Assembly (NCBI GenBank): GCA_005790605.1
Contig: SXUI01000018.1
Coordinates: 1-64,000, forward strand
From: Planctomycetia bacterium
Lineage (GTDB): Bacteria; Planctomycetota; Phycisphaerae; Phycisphaerales; SM1A02
DNA: 64,000 nucleotides
Direction: 5' to 3'
The notes under the pieces are model-generated. The model was not told the DNA's origin and searched no databases. It saw only the letters and a program-made list of their open reading frames with translations. Every line of letters starts with the position of its first letter. The first letter of the stretch is position 1. Position numbers and translations under genes: made by a program. Shown here one piece after another: positions 48,693-52,050 of this stretch.

Positions 48693-49379
48693 ATGAAGAT
48701 TGCACAGAAAACAGCGCTCATGGGCCTCGCGGTCGCATCGATCGCAGGTGTCGCTTCCGCAACCTTTACCGGTTACTCGGTCACCAACGGCGGAAGCTCC
48801 GGCGGCCTCACGAAGTACGCGGTCTACGCGCAGTTCAGCGGCGCAACTGACACCGCCCTCAACTTCTTCCACATCAATCAAGAGAGCGGTTCGGCTGGCG
48901 TCAGCTTCTGGCACGCCGATGCTCTCACCGGCGGCGCTCCTTCGAACACCGCGGGTACCTGGAACCCACAGTTCGTCCTCGCTCCTGGCGCTTGGGACTC
49001 GTTCGTGTGCGTCGGTGGCGGTACGGGTTTCGCCTCAGGCAACTCGACCAACGCTGACCCATCCTTCGGTGCTGCTGGTTTCAACCAAGCACAGATGCCA
49101 TTCCCTTCGCCAAACAACCATGCAGTTGGTCCAGGTTGGTTCAACTCGAACCCACCGAACCTTCAGGGTCGCGTGGTCGGCGGACAGGTCCTTCTCGGCC
49201 AGTTCGTGATCGCTGACGCTGCGAACATCACCATGTTCCTCAAGGTTGGATACAACGACGGCGTCGCTGGTTCGCCAGTGCAGTTCGGTGAAGGCACCTT
49301 CACCCTCGGCGTTCCTGCTCCAGGCGCAGTCGCCCTTCTCGGTCTCGCTGGCCTCGCTGGCCGTCGTCGCCGCGCGTGA
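48693..49379 (+). CDS. Secreted protein with PEP-CTERM-like C-terminal sorting tail (paralogue 1)
   Basis: The 228-residue protein has a signal peptide (1-23, ending VASA), a beta-rich mature domain (FTGYSVTNGGSSGG, FVCVGGGTGFASGNSTNADP, GPGWFNSNPPNLQGRVVGG, VGYNDGVAGSPVQFGEG) and the tail PAPGAVALLGLAGLAGRRRR. The tail is a short motif, a hydrophobic helix and a basic end, like PEP-CTERM or MYXO-CTERM signals that are cut and anchored by exosortase-type systems. It shares most landmark segments with the genes at 49694 and 50763. Pro is mostly encoded by CCA and overall codon choice is narrow, suggesting high expression. A strong terminator follows. Confidence 0.8.
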   Translation: MKIAQKTALMGLAVASIAGVASATFTGYSVTNGGSSGGLTKYAVYAQFSGATDTALNFFHINQESGSAGVSFWHADALTGGAPSNTAGTWNPQFVLAPGAWDSFVCVGGGTGFASGNSTNADPSFGAAGFNQAQMPFPSPNNHAVGPGWFNSNPPNLQGRVVGGQVLLGQFVIADAANITMFLKVGYNDGVAGSPVQFGEGTFTLGVPAPGAVALLGLAGLAGRRRRA

Positions 49380-49440
49380 TCCTGACTTCCACGATCCTTG
49401 GATCGTGACGTCGAGACACGACAAGTAGCTCGCTAAATCA

Positions 49441-49470
49441 GTCCCCCGCTACCGTGAGGTAGCGGGGGAC
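49441..49470 (+). terminator. Terminator after sorting-tail paralogue 1
   Basis: A perfect 13-bp stem (GTCCCCCGCTACC with GGTAGCGGGGGAC) with loop GTGA, followed by TTGTGCGTTTTT. The rest of the 314-base gap (49380-49693) holds only a smaller hairpin at 49390-49407 and nothing else recognised. Confidence 0.88.
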
Positions 49471-49693
49471 TTGTGCGTTTTTGAGCACTCTCAGAGTTCG
49501 CTTCCTCTCGGTGACTCGTGACCCTTCTGAAATGCGCGGCGACTCAGACCCTTCGCGAAAGTCTCACCCGCGGAGCGTTCCCAAGGCGGTCATCTGTGAG
49601 ACAAAGCGCGCGGCTCACTGCCGGTGAAACGAGCGAATTCGCCGCGCCAAACTAGCGACTCCTTGCGCCGGCGCCATACGATGCGTACGGAGA

Positions 49694-50410
49694 TTGAGCT
49701 TGCAGCAAGCATTGAAGTTCACATGTCTCAGCATCGCCTCCGCTGGCATTTGCAGAGCGGCGCCCGCGTCCTTCACCGGCTTCGTCACCGAGATGACGAC
49801 CGTTTCGACGAACCACGTCTTTCGAGTGTTTGCATCGTTTGACGGCGAGAATGACACACTCTTGAGTGCGTTTCAGATCCATGCGTTCTACGGAACGACC
49901 CTCCCGCTCTTCCTTCACAACGATGCGCTCACCGGCGGCGGCGCGACCACACTCGCTGGTGGTTGGAGTCCTGTCTTCCTCCTCTCCGCGAACGCGCTTG
50001 ATTCGTTCGTGACCATCGGCGGCTCGACTGGATTCGCGTCGGGGAATACGACGAGCGCTGATGCAGGCTGGGGTGCGCCGGGTTTGAATCAAGTGCAGAT
50101 TCCAGATGGCGCGAACACGGGCGTTGCAGGGTGGTTCAACTCGAATCCGGCCAATCTCCAGGGGCGCGTCACCGAAACGGGGAGAGTTTTCCTTGGCCAG
50201 TTCGTCGTCCCAAACTACGGGTTCCTCTGTGCAACACTCCAAGTGAGCTACGACGATGGAACGGCAGGCGCACCACTCGAGTTTGGATCGGGGATCATCG
50301 GCTGCCCTGCTCCGGGCGCTGTTTCGGTGGCAGGTCTCGCGCTCGTCTTCTGCCGTCGGCGGCGGCGCGAATCGTCGGTCGTGATGCACTTCGGTGCAAT
50401 CGACGGATGA
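49694..50410 (+). CDS. Secreted sorting-tail protein (paralogue 2, diverged)
   Basis: The frame opens at TTG codons (49694, 49700 or 49712) with GGAG a few bases upstream; no ATG is available, so the start is uncertain. The up to 238-residue product has a signal-like N-terminus (FTCLSIASAGICRAAPA) and the same landmarks as its neighbours (VTIGGSTGFASGNTTSADAG, WFNSNPANLQGRVTETGRVF). Its tail is altered: PAPGAVSVAGLALVFCRRRR followed by 15 extra residues. The Cys in the helix and the extension after the basic run may stop sorting. Codon choice is looser than in paralogues 1 and 3. It may be a low-expressed or decaying copy. Confidence 0.65.
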   Translation: MSLQQALKFTCLSIASAGICRAAPASFTGFVTEMTTVSTNHVFRVFASFDGENDTLLSAFQIHAFYGTTLPLFLHNDALTGGGATTLAGGWSPVFLLSANALDSFVTIGGSTGFASGNTTSADAGWGAPGLNQVQIPDGANTGVAGWFNSNPANLQGRVTETGRVFLGQFVVPNYGFLCATLQVSYDDGTAGAPLEFGSGIIGCPAPGAVSVAGLALVFCRRRRRESSVVMHFGAIDG

Positions 50411-50762
50411 CTCTGGTGATCCTCTGAATCGTCGCGCCTCCGATCTCCTTCGGATCCTTGCGCAAAGTCGGTCACTCGCTCCACTAACGCCAGGGATGAG
50501 CGGCACTTCTAGGTGCCATTCGCGCCGAACTGAGCTAGATTTATGGTCCTAGAACCATGAAGTATTCAGGCTCTGCATATTTGAGTTTGAATTTCTTGAC
50601 TGCGCTCGCATTGGTTGCATCCTACATACGGAGGATCTGCCCTCATTGCGAGGCGGATCAGTTAGGGACCAAGGGCAGTGTCGTACTCTCAAGACGATTA
50701 CTGAGTCTGTTGCGTTGCTTTTTGTGTCCTTTATTGATCCCCCCTTTTTGGAGCAGAGAGAG
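50411..50762 (+). other. 352-base leader region of paralogue 3
   Basis: No gene is supported. The stretch is AT-richer than its surroundings. It contains a small hairpin GGCAC/GTGCC after paralogue 2, a 5-bp inverted repeat ATGGT-CCTAGA-ACCAT, and TTGACT at 50596 with only a poor -10 (ATCCTA, 17 bases on). A long untranslated leader of paralogue 3 is likely. Confidence 0.4.
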
Positions 50763-51425
50763 ATGAAAATCCTCGGACTCGCAGCTGCACTCGCTCTCGT
50801 TGGCGCCGCCAACGCAGACTTCACCGGTTACTCCGTCGTCAGTTCAAGCGTCGCTGGTTACAACGTGTACCAGGTCTTTGGACAGTTCAACGGCGCGACC
50901 GACACCGTCCTCAACGCGTTCCAGATCCACGCGATCGCTGGTTCGTCACTTCAGGGCTTCGTCCATGCGGACGCGCTCACCGGTGGCGCTCCTTCGACCG
51001 TCGCTGGTACCTGGAACCCACAGTTCGTCCTCGCACCAGGCGCAGCCGACTCGTTCGTCTGCATCGGTGGCGGCACGGGCTTCGCTTCGGGCAACTCGAC
51101 CAACGGTGACCCAGGTTGGGGCGCCGCAGGTTTCAATCAAACCGGCATCCCAGACGGCGCGACCGCTGGCGTGGCTGGTTGGTTCAACTCGAACCCACCG
51201 AACCTTCAGGGCCGCGTGAACGCATCGGGCCAGACCCTTCTGGGCCAGTTCGTCCTCGCAGTCGGTGACACCGCAGGCCGCACCTTCTTCATGAAGGTCG
51301 GATACAACAGCGGCGTCGCAGGCGCTCCAGTTCAGTTCGGTGAAGGCCTCTTCTCCCTGCCAACCCCAGGCGCCGTTGCGCTCCTCGGTCTCGCAGGTCT
51401 CGCTGGCCGTCGTCGTCGCGCCTGA
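50763..51425 (+). CDS. Secreted protein with PEP-CTERM-like C-terminal sorting tail (paralogue 3)
   Basis: The ATG at 50763 follows GGAG and opens a 220-residue protein with a short signal (MKILGLAAALALVGAANA), the shared beta-rich domain (QFNGATDTVLNAFQIHAIAG, GGGTGFASGNSTNGDPGWGA, WFNSNPPNLQGRVNASGQTL, VGYNSGVAGAPVQFGEG) and the tail PTPGAVALLGLAGLAGRRRR. The tail, from PGAV on, is identical to that of paralogue 1. Narrow codon choice again suggests high expression. Its 3' region contains a repeat copy and then a strong terminator. Confidence 0.8.
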   Translation: MKILGLAAALALVGAANADFTGYSVVSSSVAGYNVYQVFGQFNGATDTVLNAFQIHAIAGSSLQGFVHADALTGGAPSTVAGTWNPQFVLAPGAADSFVCIGGGTGFASGNSTNGDPGWGAAGFNQTGIPDGATAGVAGWFNSNPPNLQGRVNASGQTLLGQFVLAVGDTAGRTFFMKVGYNSGVAGAPVQFGEGLFSLPTPGAVALLGLAGLAGRRRRA

Positions 51426-51427
51426 CT

Positions 51428-51523
51428 CTTGAGCGCTCGCGCAGGTTTCTTGCCTCGCAACGAGGTAAAAACGCTGCACTCGCTTTGGACTCCGCCGCCG
51501 CGAGTGAATCGCGATCGGCGGAG
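51428..51523. repeat. Structured intergenic repeat, copy A
   Basis: A 96-base element: CTTGAGCGCTCG lead, hairpin 1 (CCTCG-CAA-CGAGG), a conserved linker (AAAAACGCTGCACTCGCTTT), and hairpin 2 (CTCCGCCG...CGCGA-GTGAA-TCGCG...CGGCGGAG). Copy B has the same plan with different stem bases. It lies directly after the paralogue 3 stop, before its terminator. Confidence 0.8.
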
Positions 51524-51562
51524 GGCGAACTCCGAGCGCCAGACAGCATTCCTTGAATGATC

Positions 51563-51603
51563 CAAGCCCCCACGCAGTGTACGGCGTGGGGGCTTGCTTT
51601 TTT
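51563..51603 (+). terminator. Rho-independent terminator after paralogue 3 and repeat copy A
   Basis: A 13-bp stem (CAAGCCCCCACGC with GCGTGGGGGCTTG), 8-base loop, then CTTTTTT. The right arm and T-run are partly duplicated after repeat copy C (51839-51852). Confidence 0.93.
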
Positions 51604-51626
51604 GCGCCCGTCCTTTGAGCGCATCC

Positions 51627-51723
51627 CTTGAGCGCTCGTGTCAGGTTTCTTGCGGCGCAGCGCCGCAAAAACACTGCACTCGCTTTGGACTCCGACCGCG
51701 CGAATGAATCGCGACGGTCGGAG
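51627..51723. repeat. Structured intergenic repeat, copy B
   Basis: A 97-base element collinear with copy A. Hairpin 1 is GCGGCG-CAG-CGCCGC and hairpin 2 is CTCCGACCG-CGCGA-ATGAA-TCGCG-A-CGGTCGGAG. Stem bases differ from copy A on both sides so that pairing is kept. Confidence 0.8.
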
Positions 51724-51785
51724 ATCGGGCTCAGTTCGTCCATCGAGCATGAGCGAAGACGCGTCCCTGCAGGCGTCCCATTCAC

Positions 51786-51840
51786 TCGCGGCGCAGCGCC
51801 GCAAAAACACTGCACTCGCTTTGGACTCCGGCCGCGCGAG
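51786..51840. repeat. Structured intergenic repeat, partial copy C
   Basis: The 52-base core 51788-51839 matches copy B 51652-51703 with one substitution (A to G in hairpin 2). It lacks the CTTGAGCGCTCG lead and the right arm of hairpin 2, which is replaced by sequence like the tail of the terminator at 51563-51603. Confidence 0.75.
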
Positions 51841-52050
51841 GGCTTGCTTTTGCGTTTGCCGCAAGCCAGAGCCCTTTCAGGGCATCCACTTACGCCGTGC
51901 AGATGCTATGCATTTCCTCATGAATTTCTTCCGTTCTTCTCGCTTTGCGTGAACCGTGAGATACCTTCTCCGCGTAACGACTCGCTTTCGCGATCGTCGT
52001 GTCAGTTCAAGTTACTCGCACTTCTCTCGACAGTTCACAGGAGCATAATT
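51841..52050 (+). other. Leader region of the dockerin-tailed protein
   Basis: No gene is supported. The region opens with a 7-bp hairpin GGCTTGC...GCAAGCC (51841-51867), likely a rebuilt terminator-like structure. It ends with ACAGGAGC, the ribosome site of the GTG at 52051. An open frame through the repeats into the next gene is explained by absence of stops, not by coding. Confidence 0.45.

Follow-up and report, generated by a model that had tools for sequence, protein, structure and literature searches.

Within the window, the whole stretch of 64,000 nucleotides that was analyzed, three tandem paralogous genes (48693-51425) encode secreted-type proteins with ends ..PGAVALLGLAGLAGRRRRA, a PEP-CTERM-like C-terminus. 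A relative of these genes is found at L156 (3097-3765), where an element of the kind described here lies downstream too. Three bases past the stop codon of the upstream gene (TGA, 51423-51425), and ahead of the intrinsic terminator of that gene (51563-51602, + strand; recognized by its inverted repeat and by orthologous alignment with the congeneric genomes G001 and G002), begins the first copy of a structured repeat. This copy A (51429-51540, + strand, type 1) is matched by the covariance model R1 at 51429-51534 with 103.8 bits. Its hairpin 1 (51431-51486, + strand) has the outer pairs GAGCG/CGCTT, a bulged C in TTTCTTG and the tip CCTCG-CAA-CGAGG, and its hairpin 2 (51490-51523, + strand) is formed by CTCCGCCG..CGGCGGAG with the inner CGCGA-GTGAA-TCGCG. 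An extra head unit, TTGAGCGCATCCC (51615-51627, + strand), abuts copy B; such doubled heads stand before 27 of 78 copies, about a third. Copy B (51628-51740, + strand, also type 1) is of full length with the tail ATCGGGCTCAGTTCGTC and is matched by R1 at 51628-51734 with 125.3 bits, the 3' limits given here for copies A and B being approximate, as they were drawn from the conservation profile. Hairpin 2 of copy B (51690-51723, + strand) is formed by CTCCGACCG..CGGTCGGAG with the inner CGCGA-ATGAA-TCGCG and a bulged A.

Copies A and B had been picked out earlier in a sequence-only reading, and the arms that it quoted are all present: CCTCG/CGAGG in hairpin 1 of copy A and GCGGCG/CGCCGC in that of copy B, with the inner CGCGA/TCGCG of hairpin 2 kept and its outer stem changed on both sides. 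Within the order of lead, hairpin and linker proposed there, the lead and linker are not single-stranded; they pair as the lower part of hairpin 1 (GAGCG..CAGGTTTCTTG with CAAAAAC.CTG..CGCTT). The two copies begin at TTGAGCG (51429 and 51628), and to them a third, truncated copy has to be added. This copy C (51788-51839, + strand) retains the tip of hairpin 1, the linker and the 5' arm of hairpin 2, and is fused to the terminator-like GAGGGCTTGCTTTT; it is recovered as a DNA match over 51785-51839 at 96% and is also a member of the window repeat family. The window contains three occurrences of the linker 21-mer CTGCACTCGCTTTGGACTCCG, where 0.00 would be expected, and the third of them marks copy C. 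At 51834-51851 copy C passes into GAGGGCTTGCTTTT, which reproduces part of the terminator at 51563-51602, and it looks as if the element and the terminator had been joined there by recombination. Copies A and B stand more than one mutational step apart, belonging to separate subfamilies within a family that spans the genome.

A repeat family in several genera

Thirty-two copies from the genome of the window (G000; 3.03 Mb, 99% complete) were aligned without structure (alignment A1), and R1 was built from A1 together with the structure seen in the folds of individual copies. At E <= 0.1 the model gave 120 matches in G000, which we take as about 120 copies; a DNA search with copy B as query gave 58. 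The covariance-model search that had been suggested for finding further copies was thus productive, and it extended to congeners and other genera. The three sequenced congeners (G001, Baikal-deep-G172; G002, ZH-13MAY13-plancto70; G003, F1-140-MAGs142) each have many R1 matches among the 63 candidates scored per genome, and in an exact pattern search of 84,980 species the pattern was present only in these congeners. The Zurich genome among them (G002) belongs to the CL500-3 clade, for which the name Nemodlikiaceae has been proposed (PMC6461901). Run on 397 genomes of the class, R1 found nothing beyond the genus other than weak matches in two genomes of other genera, G028 and G031, which are tandem units with the layout of the G000 family. 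These weak matches were included in building a broader covariance model, R2, whose search was confined to the GTDB family. There it hit 19 of 181 genomes, spread over 7 of 45 genera, with many copies in genus g52. A limitation of the repeat to one genus was rejected, given that the G028 and G031 matches are real and that R2 reaches seven genera.

Of about 105 clusters, 15 sit at contig ends (L152, L165, L178, L181, L184 and others), which suggests that the repeats break assemblies and that true copy numbers are probably higher. Viral contigs contained no match to the exact pattern, and hence no sign of phage carriage for that pattern. Rfam 15, applied at gathering and permissive thresholds to 53 kb of loci, returned one tRNA only and matched no element, and a literature search, with most subscription journals outside its reach, turned up no description of the repeat family. 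The family is real and apparently undescribed, new in its architecture, its range and its absence of a known mover.

Anatomy and covariation

The unit, of some 110 bases within a range of about 85-120, runs in the order TTGAGCG, a long bulged hairpin 1, CGCTYTSGA, and a bulged hairpin 2 with the loop GA-RTGAA-TC. In hairpin 1 the outer pairs are GAGCG/CGCTT and the tip is free, with a nearly constant bulged C in TTCT that is lacking in type 2. The linker reads either CGCTYTSGA or CGCTYTGGTG. The outer stem of hairpin 2 is likewise free, its inner stem is closed by GA..TC around RTGAA, and the bulge is usually one A on the 3' side of the inner helix. G000 holds 81 copies of type 1, which has the tail ATCGGGCTCAGTGCGTC, 34 of type 2 (head TTGAGCGCTCGCGACTTG) and 6 of type 3. 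Copies in G001 often have an extra 3' part containing ACCGACTCCGTCGGT, and at two loci of that genome (L205, 2991-3449; L200, 4689-5000) we observed an extra 3' module around ACTTCAGTCTTT..CCCCTCACCGACTCCGTCGGTAG with a small hairpin of its own.

Pairing holds in 92.7% of the cells of A1. Shuffles reach 83.5%, and moving the partner by 1-3 columns lowers the figure to 36-49%. Double changes occur at 18 of the 38 pairs, and the covariation score is 0.211, compared with 0.082 in shuffles. The model-fitted alignments, which lean towards the model where A1 is unfitted, show double changes at 33 of 38 pairs in the congeners and at 30 of 37 in the other genera. The sequence-only reading had named two outcomes that would speak against it, a lack of further copies and unpaired stem changes building up as fast as paired ones. 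Neither was observed, and its claim of covariation within a family, rather than chance duplication, is upheld.

Matching arms might also arise with no structural constraint at all, through gene conversion of whole hairpins. Modules do shuffle: in 11 sets every one of the four possible combinations of H1 and H2 haplotypes is present, which indicates that modules also pass between copies, and at some orthologous sites hairpin 1 differs wholesale. Against conversion as the only process, however, the fold, loops and bulges are kept across genera despite stems with little shared sequence, and single-pair intermediates exist. At pair 73-96 of hairpin 2, compensated types coexist with one-sided intermediates (A-T, G-C, G.T and A.C), showing that stepwise compensation occurs. 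We therefore consider conversion alone an extremely improbable explanation; selection and gene conversion, which had been offered as alternatives for the preserved pairing, both seem to act.

Mismatches in hairpin 2 comprise 11 G.T against 33 A.C cells, or 8 against 15 haplotypes. There is consequently no excess of sense-strand G.U over A.C in this hairpin, and no sign of a sense-RNA constraint. A strand preference based on this comparison was unconvincing when counted by haplotype.

Position relative to genes

Placement was assessed for every cluster in G000 plus 34 loci from G003 and G001, with genes called by a home-made hexamer-based caller. Nearly all of the 120 R1 matches in G000 lie between called genes. 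The clusters occupy 47 convergent, 37 tandem and 3 divergent gaps, compared with 68, 191 and 81 for gaps in general (at least 30 bases), an enrichment in convergent gaps that is highly significant (Fisher p = 1.5e-9). An outward 5' end faces a stop codon in 96 of 121 cases, at a median distance of 12 bases, and at 12 of these stop-facing ends the TGA within TTGAGCG is the stop codon itself. A T run is lacking in the elements, and in all 8 cases with a detected terminator the element lies ahead of it, in none behind. In tandem gaps 21 elements are in sense and 11 in antisense orientation, a difference that is not significant (p = 0.11); an exclusively sense orientation was rejected on these counts. 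Placement at stop codons is not unique to this family, since E. coli REPs also gather there (PMC12306157).

The short distance to stop codons, the edges at which the element supplies the stop and the constant position ahead of terminators would all suit an RNA element at mRNA 3' ends that is selected site by site, for exonuclease protection or for ribosome stalling or recycling at the stop, with mobility incidental or past. Such a role would also fit the tail-to-tail dimers described below, which give each convergent gene one sense copy, and the seven element-bearing orthologous gaps common to G000 and G003; in E. coli, REPs within 15 nt of the stop lower translation, and REPs stabilize mRNA (PMC12306157). 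On the other hand, the sense bias in tandem gaps is weak, the sense strand lacks a G.U excess, orthologues in the congeners manage without the element and Rfam offers no match. Site-by-site selection of this kind is a possibility that deserves some weight, but we do not expect it to be the main explanation.

Empty sites, dimers and tandem units

G001 and G002 retain the upstream gene of the window locus together with its terminator, which lies much nearer the stop codon there than in G000; the element stands between gene and terminator only in G000. On the simpler reading of these alignments copy A is most likely an insertion between stop codon and terminator, loss in G001 and G002 being possible. 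Of the orthologous gaps, 24 could be resolved between G000 and G001, and elements were found in G000 only at 2 of them, in G001 only at 3 and in both at 3, and in the resolved gaps between G000 and G003 they were present in both at 7 and in one only at 0, counts that do not represent rates because the loci were picked for carrying elements. The seven gaps common to G000 and G003 suggest that the elements move slowly or moved long ago. Neither the empty sites nor the alignments that were inspected showed a target-site duplication.

Elements also occur as 27 pairs of tail-to-tail neighbors, mostly of type 1 with type 2 (19 of 27). Fifteen of these pairs are exactly 9 bases apart and another 8 are 23 bases apart, together 23 of the 27, a fixed spacing that marks the dimer as a unit. 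In G001 we found identical tandem units of 98 and 115 bp, and in G028 five copies stand in tandem at steps of 81-89 bp.

The dimers have inverted TTGAGCGCTC ends (TTGAGCGCTC..GAGCGCTCAA) and type 1 has an imperfect TGAGC/GCTCA pair (TTGAGCGC..GGGCTCAG), as might be expected of a MITE whose mobilizing DDE transposase recognizes TTGAGCGC ends. GCTCA is, however, missing at the 3' end of type 2 and of the congener types, single copies are common and target duplication was not seen; moreover, the inner hairpins covary, although a MITE needs its ends only. We judge this origin unlikely.

Candidate mobilizing genes

The sequence-only reading had suggested looking for a REP-associated tyrosine transposase (RAYT) elsewhere in the genome, and none turned up there: Y1_Tnp (PF01797) has no match in G000, nor in G001 or G003. 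In G002, five long ORFs (L111-L115, 389-545 aa) have an N-terminal stretch like Y1_Tnp/RAYT and lie away from elements. Y1 genes are present in 69 of 181 genomes of the GTDB family. Beyond the genus, 15 genomes bear elements, and in 13 of them Y1_Tnp matches at least weakly. At 25 Y1 genes of other genomes (151 kb) no element was found within ~4 kb. The reverse transcriptase domain RVT_1 is absent from G000, G002 and G003, and the only gene with this domain is an ORF of 1019 aa in G001 (L228; G001:C60:5085-5762). An unpaired GTAG or CGTC tag at a hairpin end was not encountered, hairpin 2 being flanked by TSGA or GGTG and by ATC; the tail of type 1 does end in CGTC, but ~13 bases away from the stem.

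A REP/REPIN system of the classical type, mobilized by a RAYT (a Y1 HUH transposase), would account for the bulged hairpins, the dimers, the placement 3' of genes and the frequent Y1 matches in element-bearing genomes outside the genus. That correlation is confounded by genus g52, though, and the most copy-rich genome, G000, lacks a Y1 gene, as do two of the three congeners. With no element near those 25 Y1 genes and hairpins devoid of the tags, we regard a RAYT system as very unlikely.

Discussion

The repeat is probably a non-autonomous mobile intergenic element resembling REP, BIME and ERIC sequences. Dispersal, copy number, dimers and tandem units, covariation, module shuffling, placement, and presence or absence at orthologous sites all speak for this reading, which is weakened by the lack of a mobilizing gene in the Y1 and RVT_1 searches and of a visible target duplication. 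When only the window was in view, a functional RNA and a mobile REP-like element had been put forward together; the second is the better description, given the presence/absence pattern, the fixed-spacing dimers and the tandem arrays, and a discrete functional RNA is a possibility for which the sense strand shows no G.U excess.

If the element is mobile in this way, an enzyme supplied in trans would recognize both hairpins in their folded form, probably in single-stranded DNA, reading short constant motifs, unpaired or closing the loops, together with the bulges, and would place copies of the single unit or of the dimer at new sites. Stems could then drift as long as both arms match, because only the fold and short motifs would be read. 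Insertions in promoters and genes would be purged, so that the copies which persist are those in the stretch from stop codon to terminator, where hairpins in the transcript may be tolerated or may be useful as mRNA 3'-end structure. More speculatively, and as a whole rather improbably, the family may be a structure-read mobile element whose mobilizer falls outside the known REP transposases, kept across lake and aquatic planctomycete genera, preferring stop codons, which it would in part supply, and furnishing the 3'-end structure of many mRNAs.

A dispersed repeat of which only the fold and three short motifs have lasted over the time scale of genera is a clean natural case, and can show what a mobilizer or an RNA-binding partner reads. 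It also documents dispersed structured repeats in the Nemodlikiaceae (CL500-3), an abundant lake lineage, and makes the missing mobilizer a well-defined target to look for, with numerous copies, a set of empty sites and several genera to draw on.

Among known systems, REP, BIME and REPIN sequences (PMC3733652; REPINs, PMC3116915) share the intergenic position behind genes, high copy number, hairpins, restriction to a lineage, and tail-to-tail or head-to-head dimers, often of two subtypes. A REP, however, is one palindrome of 20-40 bases with a GTAG or CGTC tag, whereas the present unit has 85-120 bases, two unlike hairpins, a fixed linker and no tag, and RAYT is absent in three of the four genus genomes. 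ERIC/IRU (PMC2229807) is similarly intergenic and strongly paired, with no proven transposase and a length of ~127 bp, and it is transcribed, its orientation deciding the effect on the upstream mRNA (PMC2229807). ERIC is nevertheless a single long imperfect palindrome of enterobacteria with TA ends and a target duplication, in contrast to two separate covarying hairpins and no duplication seen here. BOX of Streptococcus pneumoniae (PMC3049150) is also a modular structured repeat with free combination of modules and no known mover, but its boxA-boxBn-boxC modules conserve sequence, where the hairpin modules described here have free stems. SPRITE (PMC3049150) is enriched, as a structured repeat, at the 3' ends of convergent genes, as is our family, but resembles a Rho-independent terminator, whereas the present element has no T run and stands before the terminator.
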